Part shown: positions 9,870-63,614 of the stretch, in pieces
How the letters are laid out: the number at the start of each line of letters is the position of its first letter
Numbering within the stretch: position 1 is the stretch's first letter
Origin: Bacteroidota bacterium
GTDB taxonomy: Bacteria; Bacteroidota; Ignavibacteria; UBA10030; SZUA-254
DNA length: 64,000 nucleotides
Direction of reading: 5' to 3'
Assembly: GCA_020056225.1 (NCBI GenBank)
Contig: JAGVIE010000061.1
Coordinates: 1 to 64,000, forward strand
Translations under genes and position numbers: made by a program
The notes under the pieces: generated by a model
What the model saw: only the letters and a program-made list of their open reading frames with translations
Database searches by the model: none
What the model was told of the DNA's origin: nothing

Positions 9870-9888
9870 CACAAATTACGGAGTATCC

Positions 9889-11130: not shown

Positions 11131-11186
11131 ATCAATCTGACGGATTGAATAATGACATTGACATTATATCTCAAGGAATTTAAATT

Positions 11187-13226: not shown

Positions 13227-13251
13227 CTATCCTTAGGTTCCTAATCATTTC

Positions 13252-13287
13252 AAAAGAAAAGCTGTCCAAACGGATAGCTTTTCTTTT
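13252..13287. terminator. bidirectional Rho-independent terminator
   Basis: A 16-bp stem, AAAAGAAAAGCTGTCC (13252-13267) with GGATAGCTTTTCTTTT (13272-13287), carries one G-T pair and an AAAC loop. It has a T-rich flank on both strands. It lies between the convergent lipoprotein gene (plus) and hemL (minus) and can end both transcripts. Confidence 0.88.
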
Positions 13288-13310
13288 TGGACTTGTTAGG
13301 ATGATTGCAA

Positions 13311-14600: not shown

Positions 14601-14687
14601 ATGTTCAACTCAAAATTGAAAAGTATAAAATAAAAATCTTGTTTAACCAATTTACAATCCATAAATCAAAATCCCAAATCTCATATC

Positions 14688-15668: not shown

Positions 15669-15677
15669 GAAAGGGTA

Positions 15678-36143: not shown

Positions 36144-36176
36144 GTTTTATTTAATATAGTCTTAACGGATTTCTAA

Positions 36177-36548
36177 ATGGCGGATGAAAAAAATAGTGAT
36201 GAATTTAGGCCTATTCCTATAGATTTGGATCAATTATTGAGCGAAGCTTTGCAATTTGAACACTTGGAAGTTGAAGTTGAATATCTGAGTAAGATTCTAA
36301 AATTAGTGCAAGATCCATCTGGAAGGGAGTTGGGTTTTATACTAACAGCATTATTAATAAGTAGTCCAATTAGTGAATTGGAGCGGAAATCTGAGATAAT
36401 TAGAAAATCTCTCCGGCAAATTGAAGAATTAATGGAAGATGTAAATGTAGGAGAGGAGGGATTGCAAATAACGGAACGACTTTCAATGAAAATATTTGCA
36501 ACTCTTGTAATGAGACTCGATGGTGAATGGGAAAATAAATACGAATAA
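36177..36548 (+). CDS. unknown small acidic protein inserted in the nuo operon
   Basis: The 123-residue protein has no transmembrane segment and no recognised domain. It is acidic and helix-rich (about residues 17-55 and 70-110), with a Leu/Glu heptad-like pattern. Base composition is visibly more AT-rich than that of nuoL and nuoM, and a 102-base spacer follows it, whereas other nuo genes are a few to about 50 bases apart. It is not a complex I subunit known to me. It could be an acquired gene, part of an antitoxin-like or immunity-like system, or a lineage-specific accessory factor; none of these is supported by a motif. Confidence 0.7.
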   Translation: MADEKNSDEFRPIPIDLDQLLSEALQFEHLEVEVEYLSKILKLVQDPSGRELGFILTALLISSPISELERKSEIIRKSLRQIEELMEDVNVGEEGLQITERLSMKIFATLVMRLDGEWENKYE

Positions 36549-36650
36549 AATTGCAGAATTAATGAACTTTAACGAGTTTGATCACTTAAATAAAATGGAT
36601 CTTATTAAAAATAAGAAACGATATTTAAAAAACTTTAGGATTAATTTGAC

Positions 36651-38243: not shown

Positions 38244-38276
38244 CACTAATTTTCTTTAATTTACAATTTGCCTTGA

Positions 38277-46124: not shown

Positions 46125-47243
46125 ATGGCAAAGTATAAAATCGCATGGCTCCCCGGGGATGGAATAGGTATTGAAGTTCTTGAAGCTGCAAAGATCGTAT
46201 TAGACAAACTTCACCTCGATGCCGAATATATCCACGGCGATATCGGCTGGGATTTTTGGTGCAAAGAAGGTGATGCGTTTCCACAACGTACAATTGATCT
46301 TCTTAAGAATGTTAATGCAGCAATGTTCGGCGCAATAACTTCCAAACCGGTGAAGGCGGCAGAAGCAGAACTTGTTCCTGAATTGAAAGGGAAAGGGTTG
46401 ATCTATCGTTCTCCAATTGTTAGAATGCGTCAACTGTTCGATCTTTATGTTTGTCTGCGTCCATGCAAGGGTTATCCGGGTAATCCATTAAACTACAAAG
46501 AGGATATCGATCTTGTAGTATTCAGAGAAAACACTGAAGATCTTTATTGTGGCGTGGAATTTTCACCTGTTCCGCCTGAGCTTGCAGAAACATTGTTGCG
46601 TATCTCTAAACCGTTCACCGCTTTCAAAGATTATTCAAGAGATCAGTATGCGATTTCATGTAAGATAAACACGAGGAAAGGTTCAGAGAGAATCATTCGT
46701 GCTGCTTTTGATTTTGCAAAGAAATTTAACCGGAAGAAAGTGACAATCGTTCACAAGGCAAATGTCGTACGTGCAACTGACGGATTGTTCCTCGAAACAG
46801 CGAAAGACGTTGCAAGGAATTATCCCGGTATCGAAATGGACGATGCTAATATCGACGCGATGACAATGTGGTTACTAAAGAATCCTTTCAATTACGATGT
46901 GCTTGTCGCGCCGAATCTTTACGGCGACATTATTTCCGATCTCTGTGCGCAAATGGTTGGTGGTTTGGGATTTGGCTGTTCCGGAAACATCGGCGAAAAG
47001 TTAGCTGTTTTTGAACCAACACACGGCTCGGCGCCAAAGTATGCAGGTCAGTATAAAGTAAATCCGATTGCTACAATTCTCGCTGCAAAGATGATGCTTG
47101 ATTGGCTTGGCGAAAAAGAAATGGGTACTAAACTGGAAAACGCTACCGCTGCCGTCATCAAAGAAGGTAAAGTTCGCACGTACGATATGGGCGGAAGCAA
47201 TAAGACTCTTGATATGGCAAAGGCAATAGCTGAAAAACTCTAA
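46125..47243 (+). CDS. isocitrate/isopropylmalate-family dehydrogenase
   Basis: A beta-decarboxylating dehydrogenase, 372 residues, acting on a 2-hydroxy tri- or dicarboxylic acid. The nucleotide loop starts 'WLPGDGIGIEVLEA'. The substrate region 'RSPIVRMRQLFDLYVCLRP' aligns with that of isocitrate dehydrogenases (Ser and the downstream Arg are kept) but the Asn that follows Ser by two positions is Ile. The cofactor loop 'HGSAPKYAGQ' has the Lys-Tyr pair that in E. coli Icd favours NADP, while the second NADP Arg is not evident. Isocitrate is the most likely substrate; homoisocitrate or an isopropylmalate-like acid is possible given the neighbouring hydro-lyase. AGGA precedes the ATG. Confidence 0.85.
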   Translation: MAKYKIAWLPGDGIGIEVLEAAKIVLDKLHLDAEYIHGDIGWDFWCKEGDAFPQRTIDLLKNVNAAMFGAITSKPVKAAEAELVPELKGKGLIYRSPIVRMRQLFDLYVCLRPCKGYPGNPLNYKEDIDLVVFRENTEDLYCGVEFSPVPPELAETLLRISKPFTAFKDYSRDQYAISCKINTRKGSERIIRAAFDFAKKFNRKKVTIVHKANVVRATDGLFLETAKDVARNYPGIEMDDANIDAMTMWLLKNPFNYDVLVAPNLYGDIISDLCAQMVGGLGFGCSGNIGEKLAVFEPTHGSAPKYAGQYKVNPIATILAAKMMLDWLGEKEMGTKLENATAAVIKEGKVRTYDMGGSNKTLDMAKAIAEKL

Positions 47244-47253
47244 ATCCTAATAT

Positions 47254-47366
47254 CTAAATTCGAAATAAATTCAAAAACCTAAATCTCCAAATTTATACTT
47301 CAAAGGTATTCTATTTTTCGAATTCGGAATTTTGAAATTGTTCAGAATTTAGAACTTCGAATTTAG
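47254..47366. repeat. AT-rich intergenic palindrome
   Basis: A perfect inverted pair CTAAATTCGAA (47254-47264) and TTCGAATTTAG (47356-47366) frames a stretch rich in degenerate TTCGAATT words and is followed by TTTTTATT. It may act as a large-loop terminator or be a spreading AT-rich intergenic repeat. Confidence 0.4.
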
Positions 47367-47400
47367 TTTTTATTATCTATAAATATTCAATAGTTCTAAT

Positions 47401-48306
47401 ATGCAGAAAATTGTCATTCACGAAGTCGGTCTACGCGATGGTTTGCAGATGGAAAAGCAAGTCGTTCCGACTGAGCAAAAGCTGAAATGGATTAATAGAT
47501 TGATCGATGCCGGAGTTGACATTATCCAGGTTGGCTCGTTCGTTCATCCGGAAAAAGTCCCGCAAATGGCTGATACGGATAAACTATTCGCCGAACTCAC
47601 GAAAAACAAGACAGGCAAAGCAATTCTTTCCGGACTTGTCCTAAACGAAAAAGGTTTAGAGCGCGGTGAAAAGTGCGGCGTAGAAATGTACTGCCTGGGA
47701 GTTTCGGCAAGCGAAACACATAGCATGAAGAACACCGGAATGAGCACGACTGAAGCTACCGAGCGGATTATTGCTACTGCGAAGCAGGCGATATCAGCAG
47801 GGAAAAAAGTCCAGGTTTCAGTGCAGTCAGCGTTTGGGTGTGGATTTGAAGGAGTTGTTCCGCACGAACGAGTGCTTGGCATCGTTCAAAAATATCTCGA
47901 TGCCGGGCTGAAAAATATCTCACTTGCCGATACCGCCGGGCACGCGACCCCGGATCAGATTGAAAAATTGTACGATGCAATCTATAAACTTGATAGTTCC
48001 GTTGAAGCCGCTTGCCATTTCCACAACACGTACGGTATGGGACTCGCAAATATCTATGCCGCAATGAAAATTGGGGTGCAGAATTACGAGTCTTCAATTG
48101 CCGGACTTGGCGGCTGTCCGTTTACAAAAGTTGCTGCAGGAAATGTCTGTACGGAAGATTTCATCCACGCACTGCAACGGATGAGATTCCGTAAGGAAAT
48201 TAATTTACTCAAACTGATTGATCTGGCTAAAGAGTTTGCAGGATTTTTCAATCGTGAAATGCCGGGGTTGGTGTATAAATCAGGACCGATCCCGATGAAT
48301 CAATAA
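47401..48306 (+). CDS. HMG-CoA lyase-type enzyme
   Basis: The TIM-barrel lyase, 301 residues, cleaves 3-hydroxy-3-methylglutaryl-CoA to acetyl-CoA and acetoacetate in its typical form. It has the lyase-specific 'EVGLRDGLQMEK' (the synthases read RDGEQ instead), metal His pair in 'AACHFHNTYGMGLAN' and the signature 'SSIAGLGGCPFTKVAAGN' with the loop Cys. Next to a class III CoA-transferase, an alternative substrate such as (R)-citramalyl-CoA, cleaved by an HMGL-like lyase in Chloroflexus, is possible. The CoA-transferase starts 31 bases downstream. Confidence 0.88.
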   Translation: MQKIVIHEVGLRDGLQMEKQVVPTEQKLKWINRLIDAGVDIIQVGSFVHPEKVPQMADTDKLFAELTKNKTGKAILSGLVLNEKGLERGEKCGVEMYCLGVSASETHSMKNTGMSTTEATERIIATAKQAISAGKKVQVSVQSAFGCGFEGVVPHERVLGIVQKYLDAGLKNISLADTAGHATPDQIEKLYDAIYKLDSSVEAACHFHNTYGMGLANIYAAMKIGVQNYESSIAGLGGCPFTKVAAGNVCTEDFIHALQRMRFRKEINLLKLIDLAKEFAGFFNREMPGLVYKSGPIPMNQ

Positions 48307-48337
48307 TTCATTGAATGTTTAAAGGAATTCGATCTGT

Positions 48338-49531
48338 ATGAAATTACTCTCTAATATTCGCGTTCTCGATTTAACAAACGTTTTATCGGGACCATTTGCA
48401 ACACTCCACCTCGCACTTCTCGGTGCCGAGGTAATTAAAATCGAAAACCCAACAGGCGGAGATCTCGCTCGTGCATTGGGGTGTCTCCCTGAGTTGAATA
48501 AAAAACAAATGGGAACGAGTTTCCTCGCGCAGAATGCAAACAAGAAATCTGTAACGCTCAATCTTAAATTTCCTGAGGGAAAAGAAATTTTTAAAAAATT
48601 GGTGAAGACTGCCGACGTGATTGTGGAAAATTTCCGCCCGGATGTTATGGATCGTTTGGGAGTCGGGTATAATGCGTTGAAGGAAATCAATCCAAAAATT
48701 ATTTATTGCGGTATATCAGGATTCGGGAAAGATGGACCCGATGCAATGAAGCCGGCTTACGATCAGATCATCCAAGGGTTGAGTGGTGAGATGGCGATCA
48801 ATGGTGATGAGCGGTTGAGTCCGCTGCGAGCTGGTTTTCCTGTCTGTGATACTGTCGGCGGTTTGAATGCGGCATTTGCAATCATGAGTGCGCTTTATTA
48901 TCGCGAGAGAACAGGTGAAGGTCAGTTTATCGACGTTGCGCTTCTCGATTCAATTATGCCGCTGATGGGCTGGGTTGCTGCGAATCTATTGATCGGCAAA
49001 CAGCAACCGGTGTTAATGGGAAATGATAATTTTACTGCCGCGCCATCGGGTGTCTTCAAAACAAAAGACGGCTACATCAACATCGCCGCGAATAAACAGG
49101 AACAGTGGGAATCTGTTGCGGAAGTGCTGGGTGTTCCCGAATTGAAAGCGGATGCACGCTTTCAGGAACGCGATACGCGGAAGAAGAACCGGAAACTTCT
49201 CACACCATTACTCGAAGCAAAACTTGCTGAGCAGGAAACAAAACATTGGGTTGAAAAACTAAATGCAAATGATGTACCCTCGGGTGATATCCTTTCGCTC
49301 GAAGATGCCCTCAACCAGCCGCAAATCAAACATCGCGAGACTATCAAGTCGGTTCACAGTGAAGGCATCGGCGACTTGAAACTGTTCAATCTAACTGCTA
49401 AGTTTAGTAAGACGCCGGGTAGCATCGATTCACCACCGCCCAAATTGTCGGAACACACTGTTGAGGTTTTAAAGAGCGTTGGGTATAGTGATCAGGAAAT
49501 AGCTGGGTTTAAAGAAAAGAAAATAGTCTAG
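48338..49531 (+). CDS. class III (CaiB/BaiF) CoA-transferase
   Basis: The 397-residue protein begins 'IRVLDLTNVLSGPFATLHLA' and has the catalytic Asp region 'GFGKDGPDAMKPAYDQIIQG' typical of formyl-CoA/succinyl-CoA transferases. 'GQFIDVALLDSIMPLMGW' and 'NFTAAPSGVFKTKDGYINIA' are further family blocks. It would activate a carboxylic acid to its CoA ester, probably from succinyl-CoA or acetyl-CoA, supplying the neighbouring lyase. The donor and acceptor cannot be read from sequence. A decayed copy of its last about 40 codons lies at 50281-50373. Confidence 0.9.
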   Translation: MKLLSNIRVLDLTNVLSGPFATLHLALLGAEVIKIENPTGGDLARALGCLPELNKKQMGTSFLAQNANKKSVTLNLKFPEGKEIFKKLVKTADVIVENFRPDVMDRLGVGYNALKEINPKIIYCGISGFGKDGPDAMKPAYDQIIQGLSGEMAINGDERLSPLRAGFPVCDTVGGLNAAFAIMSALYYRERTGEGQFIDVALLDSIMPLMGWVAANLLIGKQQPVLMGNDNFTAAPSGVFKTKDGYINIAANKQEQWESVAEVLGVPELKADARFQERDTRKKNRKLLTPLLEAKLAEQETKHWVEKLNANDVPSGDILSLEDALNQPQIKHRETIKSVHSEGIGDLKLFNLTAKFSKTPGSIDSPPPKLSEHTVEVLKSVGYSDQEIAGFKEKKIV

Positions 49532-49678
49532 TTTATTGCTCGGTTGTTACCAAGAATTATCTTCATAAGATAATTGGTGAATACATTTTCAAAGATTCGT
49601 GTAATGAATAAATCAAGAATTAATCAGAGCAACAGATTACCTCCATTTGTTAAGCAACCTAAAAATGAACCGTCTGGC

Positions 49679-50278
49679 ATGAAACTTCTCTCAATAATGT
49701 TTACCTTATTACTTATCGGTTGTGCAACAACAAAAATGCCTTCATTGGTAGGCAGTGATGGTGTCGAAAAAATTGCACTTCTTTCAATGCCATTCATATT
49801 ATGCTATGGTTATGAACAATCAGCACCACATGCTTTTGTTGAGTTCGCATTTCAAATAAATGGAGAAATACAATATTTTAGGACTAAAACCACTTGTTCA
49901 GATTTCAATCTGAAAAAAGATGAACATTTAATTTATGGAGAACGTGTTACATTGTTTGGTGATGGTTCACCAACAGCAGTTCGCCGTGAAAACGGAATGT
50001 TATATCAGATTTTGCAAAAAACTCAGATATCGTATTCCTTTGGTGGGTATAGTATTAATGTTTACCAGAATATGGAGCATATTAAAAATCCCCATCCAGA
50101 CCTTGTTATTGAAGAATGTCGCCTTATTATCGATTCAAAAAAACGGGATCATTTTCTATCTATGCAAGCTGCGTTACAAAAGAATTACTTATTATGTAAT
50201 GAATTATCAGATTCTTCAATGTGCATCAAATGTAATGAATGGATCGACAATATTGAAAATGGACGAGTTAATAAGTAA
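49679..50278 (+). CDS. small lipoprotein of unknown function
   Basis: The ATG at 49679 starts a lipoprotein signal with LLIGC (Cys15); upstream in-frame TTG/GTG starts would add 35 polar residues before it and are unlikely. The 199-residue product has no recognised domain; it contains four further Cys near the C-terminus and around residue 70-80 ('KTTCSDFNL', 'LLCNELSDSSMCIKCNEW'). Codon use and AT content differ from the CoA-transferase before it. It is flanked on its right by a remnant of that gene's 3' end, so it appears to be inserted into the CoA-module. Confidence 0.6.
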   Translation: MKLLSIMFTLLLIGCATTKMPSLVGSDGVEKIALLSMPFILCYGYEQSAPHAFVEFAFQINGEIQYFRTKTTCSDFNLKKDEHLIYGERVTLFGDGSPTAVRRENGMLYQILQKTQISYSFGGYSINVYQNMEHIKNPHPDLVIEECRLIIDSKKRDHFLSMQAALQKNYLLCNELSDSSMCIKCNEWIDNIENGRVNK

Positions 50279-50280
50279 AT

Positions 50281-50373
50281 ATTGGAAATGTATAATTTAA
50301 CAGCTAAATTTAAGAAGATGAATGGTACGATTAGGGATAGTGATCAAGAAATAGCAGTATCTTAAGAAAATAA
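50281..50373 (+). pseudogene. decayed copy of the CoA-transferase 3' end
   Basis: The frame starting at 50281 reads like the CoA-transferase C-terminus: 'YNLTAKFKKMNGTI' against 'FNLTAKFSKTPGSI', then 'SDQEIA' against 'SDQEIA', with about 20 codons between the two blocks deleted. Many differences are at third codon positions, so it derives from a once-functional homologous gene rather than a recent copy. It lies directly after the lipoprotein gene. Confidence 0.65.
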
Positions 50374-50375
50374 TC

Positions 50376-50472
50376 TGACCCTCACCCCGTAACCCCTCTC
50401 CCAGGCTTGTCCTGAGCAAAGGCGAAGGATGGGAAAGGGGTGCTTCGCATCAAATGAGCGGGGAGAGGGTCA
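50376..50472. repeat. MITE-like nested palindromic element
   Basis: Terminal inverted repeats TGACCCTCACCCC (50376-50388) and GGGGAGAGGGTCA (50460-50472) match at 12 of 13 positions. Inside them ACCCCTCTCCCA pairs with TGGGAAAGGGGT, and the centre holds a CTTGTCCTGAGC...GCGAAGGA hairpin, a core known from dispersed intergenic repeats in several phyla. No coding capacity. It lies about 40 bases upstream of the hydro-lyase gene and could affect its transcript. Confidence 0.75.
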
Positions 50473-50510
50473 AGCAAGAGAAATAATTAATCAAGGAGAA
50501 TTAGAATTTT

Positions 50511-51800
50511 ATGGGAATGACGCTCGTAGAAAAAATACTGGCAAAGGCGACTGGGCAGGCGGCGGTAAAAGCCGGCGACGTGCTGGAGCCGAAGGTTGAT
50601 CTTGCGATGTCGCATGAGAATGCGGCGTTGGTGATCAATCAATTTTCAGAAATTTATAAAGACACCGGTATCCCGCTGAAAGTTTGGGATCCATCGAAGA
50701 TAGCAATTATATTCGATCATCGTGTTCCCGCTGAAAGCGCGAAGACAGCAACAAACCAGAAGAAAATACGCGACTTTGTAGGTAAACAAGGTGTTACAAA
50801 ATTCCACGACATCCGCGGCGATGAAGGCGGCATCTGCCATCAGGTATTGCCGGAAAACGGTTATGTCATTCCCGGATCGGTGATTGTCGGAACTGATAGC
50901 CATACCACAAGTCATGGTGCACTCGGAACTTTCGCTTTCGGTATCGGTGCAACGGAAATGGCAAGCGTATGGACGCTCGGAACGGTTCTGAATGTTGAAG
51001 TTCCCGGAACAATTAAAGTAAATGTCAAAGGAAAATTCCCTGCTGGTGTTTATCCGAAAGATTTGATTCTTTATTTGATCGGAAAACTCACTGCCGAAGG
51101 TGCGAATTTTAAAGTGCTAGAATTTCATGGCGAGACAATCAAAAACATGAGCACCTCCGGACGCTTAACGCTTTCCAACATGTCGGTAGAAGCGGGCGCG
51201 ACTTCCGGATTAGTGCCACCCGATGAGGAAACTCTCCGATATCTGAAAGAAGAAGCAAGTGTTGACTTCAAAGGTGAATTGTTAAAACCGGATGCTGAAG
51301 CAAAATATGATCAGGTCATAGAGGTCGATGTCACAGCTCTTGAACCACAAATAGCAAAGCCGCACACAGTTGATAATGTAAAACCGATTTCAGAAGTAAA
51401 GAATGTAAAATTAAATCAGATTGTCATTGGTTCTTGCACAAACGGTCGGTTGGATGATTTGGAAGCGGCGGCGAAAATTCTGGAGGGTAAAAAAGTTTCA
51501 AAAGATGTCCGAATGCTTGTTTTTCCGGCATCGTGGAGGATTTATAAAGAGGCGCTCAAGCGCGGTTACATCGCCGATTTAATGGATGCGGGCGCTGTGA
51601 TAATGAATTCAAATTGCGGGTGCTGCTTGGGCGTTCATCAAGGCGCGCTGGCGGATGGCGATGTTTCGCTCTCAACAACTAATCGAAACTTTAAGGGCAG
51701 ACAGGGCAATCCGAATTCCGAAGTGTATCTTTGCTCTGCCGCCGTTGCAGCCGCAAGCGCAATCACAGGTATTATTACAGATCCGAGAGGAGTAAATTAA
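50511..51800 (+). CDS. LeuC-type hydro-lyase large subunit (aconitase superfamily)
   Basis: [4Fe-4S] dehydratase/isomerase large subunit, 429 residues, the size of archaeal-type LeuC/HacA. Cluster cysteines are visible in 'IVIGSCTNGRLDDLEAA' and 'NSNCGCCLGVHQGALADG'; 'VPGSVIVGTDSHTTSHGALG' is the substrate His/Ser block. Annotated relatives are 3-isopropylmalate dehydratase, homoaconitase, archaeal-type aconitase and dimethylmalate dehydratase; sequence alone does not choose. No isopropylmalate synthase or leuB-typical gene is adjacent. GGAG precedes the start by about ten bases. It is one base from its small subunit. Confidence 0.88.
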   Translation: MGMTLVEKILAKATGQAAVKAGDVLEPKVDLAMSHENAALVINQFSEIYKDTGIPLKVWDPSKIAIIFDHRVPAESAKTATNQKKIRDFVGKQGVTKFHDIRGDEGGICHQVLPENGYVIPGSVIVGTDSHTTSHGALGTFAFGIGATEMASVWTLGTVLNVEVPGTIKVNVKGKFPAGVYPKDLILYLIGKLTAEGANFKVLEFHGETIKNMSTSGRLTLSNMSVEAGATSGLVPPDEETLRYLKEEASVDFKGELLKPDAEAKYDQVIEVDVTALEPQIAKPHTVDNVKPISEVKNVKLNQIVIGSCTNGRLDDLEAAAKILEGKKVSKDVRMLVFPASWRIYKEALKRGYIADLMDAGAVIMNSNCGCCLGVHQGALADGDVSLSTTNRNFKGRQGNPNSEVYLCSAAVAAASAITGIITDPRGVN

Positions 51801-51801
51801 T

Positions 51802-52314
51802 ATGTCACAAGAGAAATCAAAAGTTGTTGCGTTAATGCTGAATGATATTTCAACGGATATAATTTATCCCGGCAGATTCATGGCGACAGTTCTTCCAACC
51901 GAAACGCCGCAGTACTGTTTTGCAGATATGACCGAACTGAATAAACGTTTGAAGAACAAAGAAATTCCTCCGAACAGTGTTATCGTTGCCGGCGCTAATT
52001 TCGGATGCGGTTCATCTCGTGAACAAGCAGTTTCAACCATCAAAGGTTACGAAATAGTAATTGTTGCTAAAGGATTTGCAAGAATATTTTTGCAGAATTC
52101 TGTCAACCTTGGTTTAAACACTGTGGTATGTCCGACTATTGAAGCCTCGGAAGGTGATGAACTTGAGATTCTTCAAGACAAAATTGTGAATTTAACTAGT
52201 GGGAAAACCTTTCCGGTTGAACCATTGCCAAAAGCCCGGCAAGTGATTGTCGATGCAGGCGGTTTGATTGCGTATACTAGAAAGAGATTGCTCGAGAAGG
52301 TTGGAAAGAAATAA
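51802..52314 (+). CDS. LeuD-type hydro-lyase small subunit
   Basis: Swivel-domain subunit, 170 residues, that completes the active site of the preceding large subunit. The signature 'ANFGCGSSREQAVSTIKG' is clear. The N-terminal substrate loop after 'DISTDIIYPGR' reads FMAT, where homoaconitases carry YLRT and archaeal isopropylmalate isomerases YLVY-like residues (from memory), so its substrate may differ from both. It starts one base after the large-subunit stop. Confidence 0.88.
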   Translation: MSQEKSKVVALMLNDISTDIIYPGRFMATVLPTETPQYCFADMTELNKRLKNKEIPPNSVIVAGANFGCGSSREQAVSTIKGYEIVIVAKGFARIFLQNSVNLGLNTVVCPTIEASEGDELEILQDKIVNLTSGKTFPVEPLPKARQVIVDAGGLIAYTRKRLLEKVGKK

Positions 52315-54552: not shown

Positions 54553-55071
54553 ATGAAAGAAAGAGCTCAGACAATAAAGACCCGGGTACAATACGATGAT
54601 CCACTCGAAGTGTTGAGCAGAGAACATGATTACGGGTCGGAATATCTCGATAAACTGCACGAGGCGGTGGGATCCATACAGAAAAATGGATTTTCCGTAC
54701 AGGCATTCTTGCAGATAACGGATTCGACACAATATATTGCCGGCAAGATGCGGCAACATAATATTATTGAAGAGCGTTATCTTTTTTCGAAGTTGGATAG
54801 GCACGTATTTGAATCACCGAATGCAATTCGGCATGAACGGCGTGAGATGTGGCAGGCTTTCAATGAACTGATGATGTCGGTTAAGGATGTCGAGGAAGGA
54901 CGTATTCACGGAACAACCATACGTGAATTGATTCATTCGGCTGAGATGGTTGTCGAGCGATTTCGAAATCAAATAGAAAAAGAAAACACTATAATCTTCC
55001 CGATGGTGAAACGTATTTTTACCCCGGATGAATACGCATTGCTGACACAAGAAATTGCGTTAGCTTTGTAA
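54553..55071 (+). CDS. hemerythrin-like domain protein
   Basis: The 172-residue all-helical protein has the HHE pattern: 'LSREHDYGSEYLDKLHEAV', 'MRQHNIIEERYLFSKLDRH', 'IHSAEMVVERF', and 'IEKENTIIFPMVKRIF', giving His and Glu residues for a di-iron site. It may sense or carry oxygen or NO or donate iron. No TM or DNA-binding domain is seen. The 205 bases before it contain imperfect hairpins but no clear promoter; it ends 46 bases before the RAM-domain gene. Confidence 0.8.
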   Translation: MKERAQTIKTRVQYDDPLEVLSREHDYGSEYLDKLHEAVGSIQKNGFSVQAFLQITDSTQYIAGKMRQHNIIEERYLFSKLDRHVFESPNAIRHERREMWQAFNELMMSVKDVEEGRIHGTTIRELIHSAEMVVERFRNQIEKENTIIFPMVKRIFTPDEYALLTQEIALAL

Positions 55072-55117: not shown

Positions 55118-55615
55118 ATGAGCGTTGGAACATATGTGCTGGCTCGTTTTTCAGACACCGAAAAACTTCTGCCTGCCATTGAAAAATTAAAAACTTGTGA
55201 ACATGTCCGGCGCTGGAATGCCGTCGAAGGGCATGTTCATCTGATCATCAAAACCAAAACATCTTCTGCGTCATTACCCGATACGATCAAAAAATTAGAC
55301 GGTCTTTCGGAAATATTAAGCTACGATATACTTTCTGATGGTCAAGGGGAAGATAAAGATTTTGATTCGAAGTATTGCTATTCTTACGTTTTCATCGAAT
55401 GTGAATCGGCAAAAACCGAAAAGATAATAAATTCACTTCAAACTGAAGACGGTATTCTTTTCGCTTCATCGGTGCGAGGCGGTTGCGACATCGTTGCGCT
55501 TGTTAGGGGTGATACGTTCTCCGCCATTGATCGTATCGTGAATGAGAAGATTAGCATCCTTGATGGAATACTCAGGATGAAAACAGATCGAGTTATCGAT
55601 CTTAAGCAAATTTAA
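55118..55615 (+). CDS. stand-alone tandem RAM (Lrp/AsnC effector) domain protein
   Basis: The 165-residue protein seems to contain two Lrp/AsnC-type ligand-binding (RAM) modules (about residues 1-80 and 85-165); the second is the clearer, with 'SYVFIECESAKTEKI' and 'VRGGCDIVALVRGDTFSAI'. The helix-turn-helix half of Lrp is missing, so it probably binds a small molecule or partner rather than DNA. It starts an operon with NuoE-, NuoF- and NuoG-like genes and Buk/Ptb; the NuoE-like gene starts ten bases after it. A role as amino acid sensor for this branch is a hypothesis. Confidence 0.65.
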   Translation: MSVGTYVLARFSDTEKLLPAIEKLKTCEHVRRWNAVEGHVHLIIKTKTSSASLPDTIKKLDGLSEILSYDILSDGQGEDKDFDSKYCYSYVFIECESAKTEKIINSLQTEDGILFASSVRGGCDIVALVRGDTFSAIDRIVNEKISILDGILRMKTDRVIDLKQI

Positions 55616-55625
55616 TGAGGATAAA

Positions 55626-56129
55626 ATGAGCGCATCTGCAGATGAATTCAAACCATTCAACGTCGATTTGTGGAAGTACGATGGGCACGACGGTGCTTTG
55701 ATACCGCTTCTTCAATCTGCTCAGGATACTTACGGCTACGTCTCCGAAAAGGCAATAGATTACATAAGTCATGTAACCGGTATAGCAGCGGCAGATATTT
55801 ACGGTGTGGTTACATTCTATGCGCAGTTCCGCACTAAACCGCTCGGGAAAAACGTTATCAAAATATGCAACGGCACGGCATGCCATGTGAACGGCGCTAA
55901 GTCTGTTTACGATGTGGTTCAGGATGAGTTAAACCTGAATTACGATGAGACTACAGAAGATGGAAATTTCAGTTTGCTGTCTGTTGCTTGCATCGGTTGT
56001 TGTTCGCTCGCCCCGGTAATGACGATCGGTGGAGAGACATACGGCCGGCTGGAGTCGAACAAGTTGAGAAAAATCCTGCGCGAGCAGAAAAAACACGCGC
56101 GAGAAACCGCGAAACAAACAGAAACCTGA
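55626..56129 (+). CDS. NuoE-like [2Fe-2S] thioredoxin-fold subunit
   Basis: 24-kDa-type subunit, 167 residues, of NADH-oxidising modules. Cysteine ligands are in 'KICNGTACHVNGAKSV' (Cys-x4-Cys) and 'VACIGCCSLAPVMTIG' (Cys-x3-Cys). The N-terminal helix bundle 'IPLLQSAQDTYGYVSEKAID' is typical. Together with the next two genes it forms the electron-input part of a Nuo-, Hyd- or Fdh-type complex. GAGG lies six bases before the ATG. Confidence 0.9.
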   Translation: MSASADEFKPFNVDLWKYDGHDGALIPLLQSAQDTYGYVSEKAIDYISHVTGIAAADIYGVVTFYAQFRTKPLGKNVIKICNGTACHVNGAKSVYDVVQDELNLNYDETTEDGNFSLLSVACIGCCSLAPVMTIGGETYGRLESNKLRKILREQKKHARETAKQTET

Positions 56130-56139
56130 GGAATCAATC

Positions 56140-57897
56140 ATGAAAACTGTAACAATCGGTCTCGGTACATGCGGTATTTCTGCGGGCGGTGAAAAAGTTT
56201 ATAAAGCGTTTCTCGATGAATTGAAGGATCGCCCCAATTCATTCCTTCTTAAAGAAACAGGATGCGTGGGGATGTGTTATCGTGAAGTGCTCGTTGAAGT
56301 TTTTGATGCAGGTGGAAAAGCGCACGTTTATGGAGATGTCACTCCGGATAAAGTTGGAAAAATCGTTGAGGAAGATATACTCAGCGATCGAACTATAGAC
56401 GATTGGCTCGTTAGCGGTGATGGCAGAGAAAAAGGATTTTATGAGAATCAAGTTCGCATCGTCTTAAGAAATTGCGGTAAGATCGATCCGGGTTTAATAG
56501 AAGAATATATAAACTGCGGCGGTTACACGGCTATCCAAAAGGTTTTTAAATCGGTGACTCCCGAAAAAGTAATTGATGAAATTATTGTTTCAGGTTTGAG
56601 GGGCAGAGGCGGCGGCGGTTTTCCGACCGGGACAAAATGGAAATTTACACGAGCCGCAACAGGCACGAAAAAATATGTTATATGCAATGCCGATGAAGGC
56701 GATCCGGGGGCGTTCATGGACCGCTCGGTTCTTGAAAGCGATCCTCATTCCGTTCTCGAGGGGATGATCATTGCCGCTTATGCGATTGGTGCGAGTGACG
56801 GTTACATTTATGTGCGCGCCGAGTATCCCAAGGCAGTAGCACGTTTGCGTCAGGCAATCGTCCAGGCACGGAAAAAAGGATACCTCGGTGAAAATATTCT
56901 CGGTTCAGGTTTTTCATTCGACATAAAAATTAAAGAAGGCGCCGGCGCGTTCGTGTGCGGCGAAGAGACTGCCCTTATTGCATCTATAGAAGGACGCCGC
57001 GGTATGCCGCGTTTCCGTCCGCCTTTCCCGGCAAATTCCGGCTTGTGGGGAAAACCGACAAACATTAACAATGTTGAAACATTTGCCAATATTCCGTGGA
57101 TTATACTAAATGGCGGTGCGGCGTTTGCCGCTTACGGAACCGCCGACAGCAAAGGAACCAAAGTATTCGCCATGGCAGGAAAAGTGAAACGCACCGGGCT
57201 TGTTGAAGTCCCGATGGGAATCACTATCAACTCTATCATCTTTGATGTTTGCGGCGGTATTGTCAACGATAAAAAATTCAAGGCTGTACAAATGGGCGGA
57301 CCATCAGGCGGGTGTATTCCTGCTTCTATGTGCGAACTCCCGATCGATTATCAGCAGATAAACAAAACCGGCGCGATCATGGGTTCCGGTGGTTTGATTG
57401 TGATGGATGAAACCACATGCATGGTCGATGTGGCAAAATTCTTCCTGGGTTTTACGCAAGCTGAATCGTGCGGCAAATGTACCTTCTGTAGAATCGGTAC
57501 AAAACGGATGCTCGAAATTCTTGAACGCATCACAGAAGGCAAAGGTACGATGGCTGATCTTGAAAATCTTCAGGAGCTAAGCGAACAAGTTAGGTCAGCA
57601 TCACTCTGCGGACTCGGGCAAACGGCGCCCAATCCTGTTCTCACCACGCTGAAATATTTCCGTGAAGAATATGTTGCGCATATTCAGGAAAAAAAATGTC
57701 CGGCGCACGTATGCGCTGCGATTCTCGTCTATACGATCAACGAGAAATGTACCGGTTGTACCGTATGTGCGAAAGCCTGTCCAACCGAGGCGATCACGGG
57801 AGAGCGAAAAGAAATTCATCTAATCGATCAAGATAAATGCATCAAGTGCGGTAAGTGCTTCACCGTCTGCCGTTTCGATGCGGTACTGAAAAATTGA
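56140..57897 (+). CDS. NuoF-like NADH:FMN subunit with extra ferredoxin domains
   Basis: The 585-residue protein combines an N-terminal thioredoxin-like [2Fe-2S] domain (about 1-85), the NADH/FMN domain ('GLRGRGGGGFPTGTKW', 'NADEGDPGAFMDRSVLE'), the N3 [4Fe-4S] site 'ESCGKCTFCRIGTKRML' (about 448-463) and a C-terminal 2x[4Fe-4S] ferredoxin ('CTGCTVCAKACPTEA', 'CIKCGKCFTVCRFDA'). Complex I NuoF (about 440 residues) lacks the two end domains; they are typical of HydB/HndC-type subunits from electron-bifurcating enzymes. Eleven bases separate it from the NuoE-like gene and nine from the NuoG-like gene. Confidence 0.92.
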   Translation: MKTVTIGLGTCGISAGGEKVYKAFLDELKDRPNSFLLKETGCVGMCYREVLVEVFDAGGKAHVYGDVTPDKVGKIVEEDILSDRTIDDWLVSGDGREKGFYENQVRIVLRNCGKIDPGLIEEYINCGGYTAIQKVFKSVTPEKVIDEIIVSGLRGRGGGGFPTGTKWKFTRAATGTKKYVICNADEGDPGAFMDRSVLESDPHSVLEGMIIAAYAIGASDGYIYVRAEYPKAVARLRQAIVQARKKGYLGENILGSGFSFDIKIKEGAGAFVCGEETALIASIEGRRGMPRFRPPFPANSGLWGKPTNINNVETFANIPWIILNGGAAFAAYGTADSKGTKVFAMAGKVKRTGLVEVPMGITINSIIFDVCGGIVNDKKFKAVQMGGPSGGCIPASMCELPIDYQQINKTGAIMGSGGLIVMDETTCMVDVAKFFLGFTQAESCGKCTFCRIGTKRMLEILERITEGKGTMADLENLQELSEQVRSASLCGLGQTAPNPVLTTLKYFREEYVAHIQEKKCPAHVCAAILVYTINEKCTGCTVCAKACPTEAITGERKEIHLIDQDKCIKCGKCFTVCRFDAVLKN

Positions 57898-57905
57898 GGC
57901 GCTGA

Positions 57906-60900
57906 ATGATAACTCTTACTATCAACGGACAAAAAATACCGGCATCTCCGGATAAAACTATCCTGCAGGTCTGCCGCGAGCAGAAGATCGATAACATCCC
58001 AACACTTTGTTATGACGATAAACTACCGCCGTTTGGATCGTGTTTTTTATGCGTCGTAGAATTGGATGGTCAAAGCAGATTATTTCCATCATGTTCCACG
58101 AAGGTTGCGGAAGGGATGAATATCAAAACACGCTCTGAACGAGTTGTTCGGGCAAGGAAAACCTGTTTGGAACTTCTTCTATCCGATCATTACGCCGATT
58201 GTTTTGGACCATGCAGACTAAACTGTCCTGCCGATGTCGATATTCAGGGATATATGTCGTTGATACACCTTGGTAAATTCAAGGAAGCAGTCGCACTCAT
58301 CAAGGAAAAAAATCCTCTGCCTTCGGTATGCGGCCGCGTATGTACGCGTAAGTGTGAGATCAATTGCCGCCGTACATTAGTTGACCAGCCGGTTGGTATT
58401 GATTTTCTAAAACGTTATGTCGCAGATCAGGATATGATCGGCGAGATGTGGAAACCGGAAGTGAAACCACCGACAGGCGAACCTATTGCCATCATTGGCG
58501 GCGGTCCCGCTGGTTTGACATGCGCATATTATTTAGTGATTGAGGGTTATCGTCCGACGATATTCGAAGCGCTTCCAGAACTCGGCGGAATGCTTCGGTA
58601 CGGCATTCCTGAATATCGACTTCCAAAGGATGTGTTAGACAAAGAAATCGGTTGGATTACCGACCTCGGTGTGGAAGTTCACCTCAATAAAGTTCTTGGG
58701 AAAGATTTTAAGATCGATGATCTATTCGATCAGGGATTTAAATCGGTCTTCATCGGTTTGGGTGCGCAGGTTGGAAAACCGATGCAAGTCGAGAATGAAG
58801 ATGTCGATGGCGTATTAAGCGGTGTTGATTTCCTTAGACAGGTAGAGATGAAAACAAATCCTCCGGTGAAAGGTCGTGTTGTAGTGGTGGGTGGCGGCAA
58901 CACTGCTATTGATGCCGCAAGAACATCGCTTCGTCTCGGTGCCGATGAAGTTATTCTGCTCTATCGCCGGACAAGAAATGAAATGCCTGCCAACATGATT
59001 GAGATCGAAGCTGCTGAACATGAAGGGGTGAAAATGGAATTTCTTGCCGCACCTGTCCGCGTTAATGTTGAACACGATAGAATGTCTTCGATTGAATGCA
59101 TCCGTATGGAGCTTGGTGAACCCGATTCGAGCGGAAGACGCAAACCTGTTCCTCAAAAAGGTTCGGAATATACATTGAAGTGTGATTGGGTGATTTCGGC
59201 AATAGGTCAGGAAGCTGATCTTACCGGTGTTGATAAAATTAAAGTTACTAAATGGAAAACAATTGAAGCCAAGCCGGGAACATTCGATGTCGATAGAACC
59301 GGTGTCTTCGCCGGAGGTGATGTTGTTACAGGTCCTGCCGATGCAATAGATGCGATTGCGGCAGGAAGAATGGCTGCACGCGCAATTGATAAATATATTA
59401 AAACTGGAATTGTGGAGCCGCTTCTCTCCCGGTTTGAAAGCCGCAGGGATAATTTTCACACGCTTACCCAAAACGATTTCCCGCAGATTGAAAAATCTGA
59501 ACGCCACACTCCGGAAGAGCTTTCGGCTTCGGAACGAATTCGGACTTTTCAGGAAGTTGAACTCAGCTACGATGATGAGACGGCGCGGGAAGAAGCGTTG
59601 CGCTGTGCTGAATGCGGCTGTGATGTCGGGTTGACTTGTATCCTCCAGGATTACTGTACTGAGTACGGTGTAGAGCAAAAGAGGTTCGTCGGTGCCTTCA
59701 ATCGTTATAAAGTAGATACACGGCATCCTTTTATTAAGATTGATTCAAATAAATGTATTCGTTGTGGAAGATGCGTCAATACTTGTTCCGAGATTCTTAA
59801 CGTATCAGCTCTTGGATTCGTCAACAGAGGTTTCCGAACGATTATAAAACCCGCGCTAGAAAAATCACTTCAGGAAACCAATTGTGTGTCGTGTGGGAAC
59901 TGCATCGATGTTTGCCCAACCGGAGCGCTTGTAGAGAAGATGCCGTTTCGTCGTTCCGGTCCATGGAAGATGGAATCGTATAATAATGTTTGCAATTACT
60001 GTGGGGTTGGGTGCAACATTACATTGAAAGTTAAAACACCCGATCTCTTTTTTGTAGCAGGAGCTTCACCTGAACTCGGACCCAATCACGGTGAATTGTG
60101 CGTGAAGGGTAGATTTGGATACGAGCATTATCTCGATGGGAGCCGGCATACTAGACCAATGATTCGGAAAGGCGGGTCGCTGGTTACCGCAACCTGGGAA
60201 GAGGCATTGGAAGCCGTTCGGAATGGACTCAACAGAATTATTATGGAACATGGCAATGACGCGATAATGGTTGCCGCATCTCCAAAATTAACTAACGAAG
60301 AGTTGTATCTTGCCGGTAGAGTTGCTCGTGCCGCTTTGAAGACCAACAATCTTACTTCATTCCATCGAATGGTGAATGAAGGGGACTATCACGCACTGGA
60401 CGATATGCTCGGAGGTACATACCCGACTGTTGAACTGGATGATGTCCTGAATGCCGATTTGTATCTTATCTTCGGCTCAAATCCTACATCAGAAAATCCC
60501 GTTATCGGCTGGAAAATTAATCGCAGAATACGGCATGGCGCTAATGCGATTGTTATTAACTCTGCCGAAATTGAAATAGCGAAACACGCCAGTGTTTGGG
60601 CTGATCCCCGCAGAGGAACTGCCACCGTTCTGATGAACGGCATTATTGCCGAGCTTATCCGCCGCGGAAAAACCGATCAGAAATTCATCAACAAACGGAC
60701 TGATAATTTTATTCAACTGAAAGAAAATCTGATTAAATATGATCTTCCTGAAGTTTCATCCATTACCGGTGTGTCCGTTGCTTCTATTGAAAAAATTGTT
60801 GAGCTTCTCTCGAATACAAATCAAAATATTGTTGCCGTATATAATATTGAAAGCAGGATAGATCGTTCAATGAACGATTTGAGATCTCTGGCTACGCTCC

Positions 60901-61631
60901 TTCTCTCGATTGGCAAACTCGGAGTTAATGGCTCCGGGATTGCGATTCTATCAGGTCAATGTAATAATACCGGAATGCAGCTTGCCGGATTCGATAGTAA
61001 GCTTGTGCCGGGCGGATGTGCGATTTCAGATAAAAAACTTGTCGGGGAAATTTCCCGGTTATGGCAAGCAGATCTTGAACAAATATTGAATGGATCCGGT
61101 TTAAATCTTGCCAGAAAAATCCGGGAAGATAAAATAAGGGCGGCGGTTATTCTCGGAGAGAATCCTTTGGCAGCCCCCGAATATAATGCGTTTGTAAATA
61201 ATCTTGAATTCAGAGTTGTTGCAGATATGTTCCTGACGGAAACGGCAATGGCGGCGGATGTCTTTCTACCGCTCTCCGCTTATCTTGAAACTGGCGGTCA
61301 TCTTACAACCTGGTACGGTGCGAAACAAAAAACCAACCCGATTGGTCCGCCATTGAATGGATTTACGACTACCGATATTCTGAAAAAACTTGCCGGATTG
61401 ATGGCACATCAGATTAAATACAATTCTATTGATGATATTACAACAGAACTCGATTCTCTGATTCAAAATCATGGTTGGCGGACATCTTGCAATAACACAT
61501 TTCTAACGAACGATGGTAAAGCCCATTTCAGTGTGTACACAGATCAAATTGTCACGACAAATCCTGTTTCACCAACAGTGTTGGCTATCGATGCGAAGAT
61601 GAAATCTCGTTTGAAATCAATCAAATCATAA
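57906..61631 (+). CDS. GltD-NuoG-like fusion: NAD(P)H:FAD oxidoreductase with molybdopterin-type domain
   Basis: A 1241-residue multidomain subunit. An N-terminal plant-type [2Fe-2S] domain (Cys35, 46, 49, 63) is followed by a GltD/NfnL-like part (about 95-510): 'SDHYADCFGPCRLNCPADV' and 'CGRVCTRKCEINCRR' cluster sites, FAD motif 'IAIIGGGPAGLTCAYYLV', NAD(P)H motif 'VVVVGGGNTAIDAARTSLRL' with a downstream YRRTRNEMPA, and 'GVFAGGDVVTGPADAIDAIA'. Next come two [4Fe-4S] motifs ('CIRCGRCVNTCSEIL', 'CVSCGNCIDVCPTGA'), and a molybdopterin-oxidoreductase domain (about 690-1241) with 'CNYCGVGCNITL'. The metal-ligand Cys/Sec of formate dehydrogenase is missing: the loop reads 'SFHRMVNEGDYH', so an active formate dehydrogenase is unlikely and NuoG-like use is favoured. 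Confidence 0.88.
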   Translation: MITLTINGQKIPASPDKTILQVCREQKIDNIPTLCYDDKLPPFGSCFLCVVELDGQSRLFPSCSTKVAEGMNIKTRSERVVRARKTCLELLLSDHYADCFGPCRLNCPADVDIQGYMSLIHLGKFKEAVALIKEKNPLPSVCGRVCTRKCEINCRRTLVDQPVGIDFLKRYVADQDMIGEMWKPEVKPPTGEPIAIIGGGPAGLTCAYYLVIEGYRPTIFEALPELGGMLRYGIPEYRLPKDVLDKEIGWITDLGVEVHLNKVLGKDFKIDDLFDQGFKSVFIGLGAQVGKPMQVENEDVDGVLSGVDFLRQVEMKTNPPVKGRVVVVGGGNTAIDAARTSLRLGADEVILLYRRTRNEMPANMIEIEAAEHEGVKMEFLAAPVRVNVEHDRMSSIECIRMELGEPDSSGRRKPVPQKGSEYTLKCDWVISAIGQEADLTGVDKIKVTKWKTIEAKPGTFDVDRTGVFAGGDVVTGPADAIDAIAAGRMAARAIDKYIKTGIVEPLLSRFESRRDNFHTLTQNDFPQIEKSERHTPEELSASERIRTFQEVELSYDDETAREEALRCAECGCDVGLTCILQDYCTEYGVEQKRFVGAFNRYKVDTRHPFIKIDSNKCIRCGRCVNTCSEILNVSALGFVNRGFRTIIKPALEKSLQETNCVSCGNCIDVCPTGALVEKMPFRRSGPWKMESYNNVCNYCGVGCNITLKVKTPDLFFVAGASPELGPNHGELCVKGRFGYEHYLDGSRHTRPMIRKGGSLVTATWEEALEAVRNGLNRIIMEHGNDAIMVAASPKLTNEELYLAGRVARAALKTNNLTSFHRMVNEGDYHALDDMLGGTYPTVELDDVLNADLYLIFGSNPTSENPVIGWKINRRIRHGANAIVINSAEIEIAKHASVWADPRRGTATVLMNGIIAELIRRGKTDQKFINKRTDNFIQLKENLIKYDLPEVSSITGVSVASIEKIVELLSNTNQNIVAVYNIESRIDRSMNDLRSLATLLLSIGKLGVNGSGIAILSGQCNNTGMQLAGFDSKLVPGGCAISDKKLVGEISRLWQADLEQILNGSGLNLARKIREDKIRAAVILGENPLAAPEYNAFVNNLEFRVVADMFLTETAMAADVFLPLSAYLETGGHLTTWYGAKQKTNPIGPPLNGFTTTDILKKLAGLMAHQIKYNSIDDITTELDSLIQNHGWRTSCNNTFLTNDGKAHFSVYTDQIVTTNPVSPTVLAIDAKMKSRLKSIKS

Positions 61632-62693
61632 ATGGAAAAAGCACATACAATATTAATTATCAATCCGGGTTCCACATCGACAAAAATCGCAATCTGCATT
61701 GGCGGTAATATTTCCGACGCTGAAATTATACCTCATGCGGCTTCCGACCTTAAACAATTTGCAGGTATCTGGGGACAATTTCCTTACAGAATTAAACTTT
61801 GTCAGGAGTGGGCGGGAAAACGGTTAACAGAATGTTCGGCTGTTGTTGCGATGGGCGGATTGCTTCGTCCGCTTCAAGGAGGTACATATCTTGTTAATGA
61901 TCGGATGTTGAAAGATGCGCGTGCTAATTTACAGGGTGAGCATGCTTCGAATCTTGGCTGTGCGCTTGCTTATGAGATCGCATCTAAATACAATTGCCCG
62001 GCTTATGTTGTCGATCCTGTTTCTGTCGATGAATTTGAGCCTTTGGCATTTTATTCAGGACATCCGAAAATCAAACGTAAATGTCTTTCTCATGCCCTGA
62101 ACATACATGCGGCTGCACGGCGTGGTGCGGAAGAATTGAAAATACCTCTTCCTCAGTCTTCGATGGTGATCTGTCATCTTGGAGGAGGAATATCGATAGC
62201 TCCGGTTCGTGGGGGGAAAATAATCGACGTAAATGATGCTTCTAGTGATGGACCGTTTTCACCGGAACGAACCGGCGGGTTGCCGCTCCAGCAGTTTATT
62301 TCCCTTTGTTTCTCAGGTGACTACACAGAAGATGAAATCCGAAAGTTGGTAATGGGAAAGGGCGGAATGGTTGCTTACCTTGGGACTAACTCCATCCTTG
62401 AAGTTGAACAACGAATCTTGCAGGGTGATGAGACTGCGAAAGAAGTATTTCAGGCGATGGCATACCAAATTTCTAAAGAAATCGGTGCAATGACTACCGT
62501 ACTTAATGGAAAAGTAAATGCGATTGTTCTTACCGGCGGTATCGCAAAATCAAAGATGCTGGTTGGGTGGATAGAGGAACGTGTTCGTTTCATCGCGCCA
62601 ATCCTTGTTTATCCCGGTGAAGATGAAATGCTTTCGCTGGCGCAAGGGGCTTTACGTGTTCTCAAAGGAGAAGAACAACAGAAGGAGTATTGA
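61632..62693 (+). CDS. buk: butyrate kinase (acyl kinase)
   Basis: Makes ATP from acyl-phosphate (butyryl-, isobutyryl- or isovaleryl-phosphate) and ADP. The 353-residue ASKHA-fold protein starts 'ILIINPGSTSTKIAICIG' and carries 'VICHLGGGISIAPVRGGKII' and 'GKVNAIVLTGGIAKSKMLV'. It starts on the base after the stop codon of the fusion gene, so it belongs to the same operon. Branched acyl-phosphates are plausible natural substrates. Confidence 0.93.
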   Translation: MEKAHTILIINPGSTSTKIAICIGGNISDAEIIPHAASDLKQFAGIWGQFPYRIKLCQEWAGKRLTECSAVVAMGGLLRPLQGGTYLVNDRMLKDARANLQGEHASNLGCALAYEIASKYNCPAYVVDPVSVDEFEPLAFYSGHPKIKRKCLSHALNIHAAARRGAEELKIPLPQSSMVICHLGGGISIAPVRGGKIIDVNDASSDGPFSPERTGGLPLQQFISLCFSGDYTEDEIRKLVMGKGGMVAYLGTNSILEVEQRILQGDETAKEVFQAMAYQISKEIGAMTTVLNGKVNAIVLTGGIAKSKMLVGWIEERVRFIAPILVYPGEDEMLSLAQGALRVLKGEEQQKEY

Positions 62694-62696: not shown

Positions 62697-63614
62697 ATGA
62701 TTAAAAATTTTGAAGAATTACTCATAACTGCATCAAGTATTACTGACAAACGTGTCGTTGTCGCTTTTCCGAATAACGAGGAAACTCTTTTAGCTGTAAC
62801 GCAAGCGCTTTCAAAAAGACTTGCTAATTTTATTCTGGTCGGAGACGAGGCAATCATCAGAAAAAAAATTACACTTGATGGCGGCATACCGGCGGGAATA
62901 GAAATAATTAATGAGCCTGTGGTAAACAATGCTTTACATGCATCTATCGATATTATCCGGCAGGGAAGAGGAGACGTTCTTTTAAAAGGCGGCGTTGATA
63001 CCGGTACTCTGATGAAGGTGGTTCTTCATGAGGAATCCGGTTTAAGAACCGGAAGATTGCTTTCGGATGTTTTCATATTCGAATATCCAATTAGAAAAGA
63101 AAATAAACTGATTATGATCACCGATGGAGGATTAACTCTCTCCCCGAATTTGCAAGATAAAGTTGAGTTAATCAATAATGCGGTAGAGGTAGCTCATTCT
63201 TTGGGTAACATGAATCCAAGAGTAGCAGTTCTCTCAGCAACTGAGTTTGTCAATCCCAAACTTCAATCTACAGTCGATGCGGCTGAACTTACCAAAATGA
63301 ATGAAGACGGTCAAATTAAAGGATGCACAGTGTATGGACCGCTTGCCCTCGACAATGCTATTTCTGTTGAAGCTGCCGATGAGAAAGGAATCAAATCGCC
63401 GGTTGCCGGAAATGCCGAAATTCTCGTACTACCGAGCATCGAAGCCGCAAATATATTTGCTAAAGGCACTACCTACTTAGCCGGTTTTAGGCTCGCGCAT
63501 GTAATTGTAGGAGGTAAAATTCCAATTCTCATTCCTTCCCGAGCAGATAAAAGCGATGCAAAGATGCTATCGATTGCACTAGGCGTGATGATGAGTAGTT
63601 TTAATAAGATGTAA
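62697..63614 (+). CDS. ptb: phosphate acyl(butyryl)transferase
   Basis: Converts acyl-CoA and phosphate to acyl-phosphate for the kinase encoded just upstream. The 305-residue protein has the PTA_PTB fold pattern: 'VVAFPNNEETLLAVTQAL', 'VLLKGGVDTGTLMKVVL', 'PLALDNAISVEAADEKGI' and the CoA/phosphate site 'VPNAEILVLPSIEAANI'-like segment (here PVAGNAEILVLPSIEAANIF). Length excludes the long Pta type. It is three bases from buk and the last gene of the operon. Confidence 0.92.
   Translation: MIKNFEELLITASSITDKRVVVAFPNNEETLLAVTQALSKRLANFILVGDEAIIRKKITLDGGIPAGIEIINEPVVNNALHASIDIIRQGRGDVLLKGGVDTGTLMKVVLHEESGLRTGRLLSDVFIFEYPIRKENKLIMITDGGLTLSPNLQDKVELINNAVEVAHSLGNMNPRVAVLSATEFVNPKLQSTVDAAELTKMNEDGQIKGCTVYGPLALDNAISVEAADEKGIKSPVAGNAEILVLPSIEAANIFAKGTTYLAGFRLAHVIVGGKIPILIPSRADKSDAKMLSIALGVMMSSFNKM

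Follow-up and report, generated by a model that had tools for sequence, protein, structure and literature searches.

What is the function of a NuoG-like protein that carries a complete NAD(P)H-binding module of the GltD type within its sequence? This question is raised by a three-gene locus, stnABC, in a 64,000-nucleotide stretch of DNA (positions 1 to 64,000 of contig JAGVIE010000061.1, assembly GCA_020056225.1; hereafter, the window) from a Bacteroidota bacterium of the class Ignavibacteria. An earlier note on the largest protein, made from the sequence alone, had proposed a complex coupling NADH, NADPH, and ferredoxin instead of, or in addition to, feeding complex I. With a probability of about 90%, the locus encodes a member of the StnABC family, an electron-bifurcating NADPH/NADH/ferredoxin transhydrogenase, because its gene set, domain order, checked cluster ligands, diagnostic residues, and phylogenetic position match those of the family. 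The BfuABC classification names StnABC (Sporomusa type Nfn) Nfn-Bfu and already counts Bacteroidetes among its hosts (PMC9304861). Coupling of NADPH, NAD+, and ferredoxin was shown with the purified StnABC of Sporomusa ovata (PMC7483475), for which a cryo-electron microscopy (cryo-EM) structure (PDB 8oh5/8oh9) and mutants have also been published (PMC10482914). The characterised homologue thus performs the coupling that had been proposed (PMC7483475, PMC10482914). The complex is not a new enzyme, and the earlier note has to be corrected in this respect: the architecture is already known, and solved structures exist.

Identification of the Three Subunits

The locus consists of three adjacent open reading frames (ORFs) at 55626-61631 of the forward strand, with intergenic gaps of 10 and 8 bp (Table 1). 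The same three Stn/Nfn-type complexes, 9bov, 8oh5, and 9n5u, are the top three solved-structure matches for each of the three subunits. StnA matches best 9bov_C (E-value of 2e-46), 9n5u_C (1e-44), and S. ovata StnA (8oh5_A, 1e-39), StnB matches 9bov_B (4e-261), 8oh5_B (1.5e-254), and 9n5u_B (5e-253), and StnC matches 9bov_A (3e-255), S. ovata StnC (8oh5_C, 7e-240), and 9n5u_A (7e-203). In a comparison of StnC with all solved structures, the Stn/Nfn-type matches ranked far above NfnB, formate dehydrogenases, and NuoG. None of the best 25 NCBIfam models reached its own cut-off on StnC. The entry 8oh5 is S. ovata StnABC, as identified by the 1172-residue length of its StnC and the published cryo-EM work. 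For 9n5u, with an NfnA of 963 residues, we infer the Thermococcus label used in our trees from length and naming, which agree with the Thermococcus sibiricus enzyme of PMC9304861.

StnB comprises an N-terminal thioredoxin-like domain, the FMN domain (Pfam Complex1_51K) with the FMN/NAD(H) site, an NADH_4Fe-4S domain, and two C-terminal [4Fe-4S] ferredoxin motifs representing the ferredoxin site. These matches bear out the suggested NuoF-like partner with its own NADH/FMN site and extra ferredoxin clusters. Sequence identity to the S. ovata enzyme amounts to 62.6% for StnB and 42.9% for StnC over about 855 aligned residues, far beyond chance. The two systems share the same three genes, the domain order, the cluster ligands, the equivalents of K170 and R239, and the inactive FdhF domain. 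The 9n5u-type Nfn-Bfu enzyme contains the same modules, and its StnC is 46% identical over the N-terminal part.

Architecture of StnC

The stnC ORF is intact, and its coordinates and reading frame had been given exactly. Pfam identified Fer2_4 (residues 1-77), Fer4_20 (101-177), Pyr_redox_2 (194-487), Fer4_Nqo3/dicluster (608-675), Molybdop_Fe4S4 (690-741), and Molybdopterin (747-1149) domains, confirming every domain that had been named for this NuoG-like protein: the [2Fe-2S] domain, the GltD/NfnL-like FAD and NAD(P)H unit, the two ferredoxin motifs, and the molybdopterin-type domain. StnC residues 1-105 align with residues 1-109 of the NuoG from the same genome, and residues 572-802 with NuoG 101-325. 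The GltD module is therefore placed precisely within the HxxxC..CxxxxxC motif of the N5 cluster, and this split His-ligated motif begins in the first domain with H95 and C99.

The inserted module resembles the FAD and NADP(H) module of NfnB in NfnAB, but it resides within a NuoG-like protein, and the N-terminal segment of NfnB has moved to the end of the module. In the alignment with an NfnB from a related genome, StnC residues 103-498 match NfnB 79-494, whereas residues 544-579 match NfnB 48-80, out of order. The out-of-order segment was also seen, albeit weakly, against two solved GltD-type proteins. On the basis of this alignment, we read the GltD module of StnC (residues 103-579) as a circular permutant relative to NfnB. 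Because S. ovata StnC and the 9bov protein have the same module order, the permutation is a feature of the family. A word search for “permut” in the Stn papers checked gave no occurrence, even though the permutation could still have been noticed.

The C-terminal FdhF-like domain raises the possibility that the locus encodes a bifurcating or NAD-dependent formate dehydrogenase (Fdh-Bfu) with an active FdhF-like domain. Searched alone, this domain indeed finds its best matches in active FdhF/HDCR and formate dehydrogenases, and S. ovata StnC itself was once annotated as a formate dehydrogenase (PMC7483475). However, the catalytic Cys/Sec of formate dehydrogenases and the following His align with V823 (codon 60372-60374) and N824, in agreement with the molybdopterin-type domain without the catalytic Cys/Sec described before. 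Non-Cys residues occupy the catalytic position in 25 of 25 metagenomic StnC rows. The Molydop_binding domain IV (PF01568) gave no Pfam match in StnC, and S. ovata StnC does not oxidise formate (PMC7483475). We rejected the formate dehydrogenase on account of the catalytic residues and the missing domain IV, and consider it highly improbable.

Cluster Ligands and Diagnostic Residues

To compare residues, we aligned 25 StnC sequences (the protein from the window and 24 metagenomic ones) together with three PDB rows. Invariant in all 28 rows are C35, C46, C49, and C63 of the [2Fe-2S] cluster, the split His motif (H95, C99, C572, and C578), and C103, C107, C567, C570, C146/C150/C154, K169, and R238. 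The GltD module carries C146/C150/C154, K169, and R238. K169 and R238 correspond to K170 and R239 of S. ovata StnC, both of which have been probed by mutation; K170 is a ligand of cluster C7 and strictly conserved in StnC (PMC10482914). The ferredoxin motifs and C696/C699/C703/C732 are likewise conserved outside 9n5u, whose row lacks the ligands C627, C660, C663, and C666, all retained in the protein from the window, and whose shorter C-terminal part is unaligned. Besides the two ferredoxin motifs, StnC thus has ligands for one [2Fe-2S] and further [4Fe-4S] clusters, two of them within or around the GltD module. All cluster ligands match those of S. ovata StnC, for which seven clusters were reported and from which the cluster assignment itself is taken (PMC10482914).

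StnB carries D188, the counterpart of D186 in the flavin loop of the S. ovata protein, at a position where all Stn and HydB rows have Asp and the complex I rows Glu. The C-terminal [4Fe-4S] motifs (C537-C577) are present, unlike in NuoF, and the N-terminal Cys pattern follows the Stn type, not the HydB type.

Phylogeny and Distribution

We calculated a StnB tree of 34 rows with IQ-TREE (LG+C20), which included the NuoF and NiFe-Bfu proteins of the same genome. The protein from the window falls into one clade with 9bov, 8oh5, and 9n5u (100/100 support), outside HydB, NiFe-Bfu HydB, and complex I NuoF. StnAB has its homologue in HydCB of the bifurcating hydrogenases HydABC and NiFe-HydABCSL, with 57-60% identity for StnB, but Stn has neither the H-cluster nor NiFe subunits, and StnB lies outside the HydB rows. 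A placement inside formate dehydrogenases or complex I, named in the earlier note as the outcome that would speak against its proposal, was not observed.

The tree also bears on whether StnABC could be an alternative NADH/NADPH input module of the respiratory complex I. The subunits are homologous to NuoE/F/G, and NuoL/M/N-like genes of the complex I membrane arm reside in the same window (33897-39779). Yet the complex I of this genome has its own NuoE and NuoF (contig C60) and NuoG (contig C4), and StnB contains ferredoxin-type C-terminal clusters and Asp188, both lacking in complex I NuoF. The StnB tree together with the second NuoEFG set led us to reject this very unlikely role, and we found nothing in support of the suggested feeding of complex I.

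The nearest relatives are found in metagenome assemblies of Ignavibacteriales and Zixiibacteriota (72-73% StnC identity), whose rows are interleaved in the StnB tree. Among 59 sampled relatives, only two other genomes, of the same order but other families, contain an orthologue. More distantly related Stn proteins (40-46% identity) form a second lineage in other families of the class. Both the interleaving and the patchy distribution probably reflect lateral transfer. Our literature search, limited to the papers accessible to us, found no report of Stn in Ignavibacteria or Zixibacteria. New are the occurrence and patchy distribution of Stn in Ignavibacteriales and Zixiibacteriota hosts, the neighbouring RAM gene (see below), and the permuted GltD module; the family itself is known.

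Proposed Mechanism and Physiological Role

By homology to the S. ovata enzyme, hydride would be transferred between NADP(H) and the FAD in the GltD module of StnC. Electrons would then travel one at a time along clusters C7-C6-C5-C4-C3 of StnC and reach the FMN of StnB, which would split them between NAD+ at the FMN and ferredoxin, reached via StnA as the proposed moving gate and the C-terminal clusters of StnB. The FdhF-like domain is a catalytically dead structural remnant. The mechanism was put forward on the basis of the S. ovata structure and mutants; there, bifurcation is assigned to the FMN of StnB and not to the GltD-type FAD (PMC10482914), which sets Stn apart from NfnAB.

Two variants of function deserve consideration. 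The complex could be a non-bifurcating NADPH:NAD+ or NADPH:ferredoxin transhydrogenase, which has kept all its parts but lost the tight coupling. The clade is known from sequence, and NfnII from P. furiosus shows that NfnAB relatives can change their coupling (PMC7483475). However, all StnAB clusters, including that of StnA, and the flavin-loop Asp188 are kept in the clade, and such a loss appears improbable. Alternatively, the physiological third substrate could be other than NADP(H), as in an Nso-like NADPH-dependent sulfur/oxygen oxidoreductase or in a peroxide-reducing use. The homology of NsoABC from Thermococcus (PMC7483475) and a hemerythrin-domain gene just upstream (54553-55071) would fit with such a substrate. 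Against it, Nso itself is considered a likely NADH-dependent Fd:NADP+ oxidoreductase (PMC7483475), the residues of the GltD site match StnC, and relatives do not share the upstream hemerythrin gene. We regard another third substrate as similarly improbable.

Which direction would the electron-bifurcating StnABC take in this bacterium? Neither PntB, nor an NfnB-type gene, nor G6PDH was found in this genome. Besides StnC, Fer4_20 matches one protein only, short and PreT-like, whose gene adjoins a PreA-like one. The same genome encodes a PFOR-like protein and a NiFe-Bfu hydrogenase, which imply ferredoxin and NADH pools. Given these genes, the failure to find the three former ones, and a complex I with its own NuoEFG, Stn is a plausible source of NADPH, and the net reaction would most likely consume NADH and reduced ferredoxin to produce 2 NADPH for biosynthetic use. 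The NiFe-Bfu hydrogenase set (locus L013, contig C41 of this genome, G000, 4827-16001) comprises BfuC, BfuB, BfuA, an MvhD-like protein, the NiFe small and large subunits, and maturation genes. We also considered an Rnf complex and rejected it: the only RnfC_N match is a 455-residue RnfC-like protein (Complex1_51K, RnfC_N, Fer4) adjoining a BMC-domain gene (locus L065, contig C33, 4531-6862), without other rnf genes.

Several points weigh against the assignment as a bifurcating transhydrogenase with this role. C114 of S. ovata StnC is replaced by Ile (I113), even though this Cys is not strictly needed, with Val or Ile at its position in two other homologues (PMC10482914). Activity is assigned by homology, and the papers found hold no measurement for a member from Ignavibacteriales or Zixiibacteriota; we likewise infer the direction and the physiological role. 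The genome is a 62-contig assembly, in which absences could be gaps, although its completeness is given as 100%.

The system from the window further differs from S. ovata StnABC in the RAM gene upstream (see below), in a host not known as an acetogen, and in two extra Cys residues at positions 87 and 142 of StnC, which are conserved in the Ignavibacteriales/Zixiibacteriota clade. C142 is located near the ligands of cluster C7, where the S. ovata C114 is missing. A Cys at the position of C142 also occurs in some other GltD-type proteins.

A Conserved RAM-Domain Neighbour

The gene preceding stnA encodes two tandem RAM-type domains (Table 1). Its AlphaFold2 model, with a predicted local distance difference test (pLDDT) score of 86.6, consists of two beta-alpha-beta-beta-alpha-beta units, for which Foldseek found the stand-alone RAM modules 2djw, 2cvi, and 2zbc as well as AsnC (2cg4). 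A RAM homologue lies upstream of stnA in every locus of the Ignavibacteriales/Zixiibacteriota clade with enough flanking sequence. In the second Ignavibacteria lineage and a Nitrospirota locus (L058, L059, L061-L063, and L032), a response-regulator receiver precedes the RAM domains in one fused protein; locus L060 has no RAM gene. In the second lineage, stnC is additionally followed directly by genes for a histidine kinase and a sigma-54-type response regulator. L058 and L063 also contain NfnAB-like genes close by.

This conserved neighbour suggests dedicated regulation, and the RAM protein is a probable regulatory partner of StnABC. More tentatively, and with the odds somewhat against it, the StnABC of Ignavibacteriales, Zixiibacteriota, and Nitrospirota might possess a dedicated RAM sensor of a small molecule (an amino acid or nucleotide) tuning the expression or activity of the transhydrogenase. 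We found no mention of a RAM-type control layer in the Stn papers checked.

Other Genes in the Window

A butyrate kinase gene starts directly after the stop codon of stnC and possibly belongs to the stn operon. This adjacency is not conserved in relatives, with ptb/buk nearby in locus L018 only, and we left an operon link to butyrate fermentation out of the mechanism. In L018, two ptb genes and one buk gene lie downstream on the other strand together with indolepyruvate oxidoreductase genes, hinting at amino acid fermentation. Farther upstream in the window (46125-52314), genes for an isocitrate/isopropylmalate-type dehydrogenase, an HMG-CoA-lyase-like protein, a CoA-transferase III, and aconitase-type large and small subunits are clustered.

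Table 1. Positions of the stn genes, the domains of StnC, and neighbouring genes in the window and in related loci (L numbers).
Feature	Position	Strand	Evidence or remark
RAM protein, 165 residues; two tandem Lrp/AsnC ligand-binding (RAM-type) domains, no DNA-binding domain	55118..55615	+	PF01037; 10 bp before stnA
stnA, NuoE/HydC-like, 167 residues	55626..56129	+	Pfam 2Fe-2S_thioredx, E 3e-49; one [2Fe-2S] thioredoxin-like domain
stnB, NuoF/HydB-like, 585 residues	56140..57897	+	Pfam, PDB matches, tree
stnC, 1241 residues; NuoG-like with inserted GltD/NfnB-type module and inactive FdhF-like domain	57906..61631	+	
StnC 1-99, NuoG/hydrogenase-type [2Fe-2S] domain (C35, C46, C49, C63)	57906..58202	+	Fer2_4
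StnC 100-571, inserted GltD/NfnB-type FAD and NADP(H) module	58203..59618	+	Fer4_20, Pyr_redox_2, NfnB alignment
StnC 572-689, second half of split His motif (C572, C578) and two [4Fe-4S] ferredoxin motifs (C617-C627, C660-C670)	59619..59972	+	Alignment with NuoG of the same genome
StnC 690-1241, FdhF-like domain, [4Fe-4S] ligands C696/C699/C703/C732	59973..61628	+	
Butyrate kinase	61632..62693	+	TIGR02707, 463 bits (cut-off 289)
Phosphate butyryltransferase-like	62697..63614	+	PF01515, E 4e-42; PRK05805/TIGR02706 below cut-off; 3 bp after buk
RAM gene directly upstream of stnA in relatives	L023:5228-5722, L027:5216-5707, L058:4896-5903, L032:970-1977		
Histidine kinase and sigma-54 regulator	L058:12074-15322, L059:12522-15772, L061:12179-15425, L062:12494-15746, L063:1819-5068		

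Implications

Proteins such as this StnC are easily annotated as formate dehydrogenase or NuoG and should not be read as signs of formate metabolism or of complex I. The conserved RAM and response-regulator neighbours provide a testable lead on regulation. The finding extends a characterised energy-coupling enzyme to lineages of the FCB group known here from metagenome assemblies alone, and suggests how a bacterium without detected PntB, NfnB, or G6PDH may produce its NADPH.

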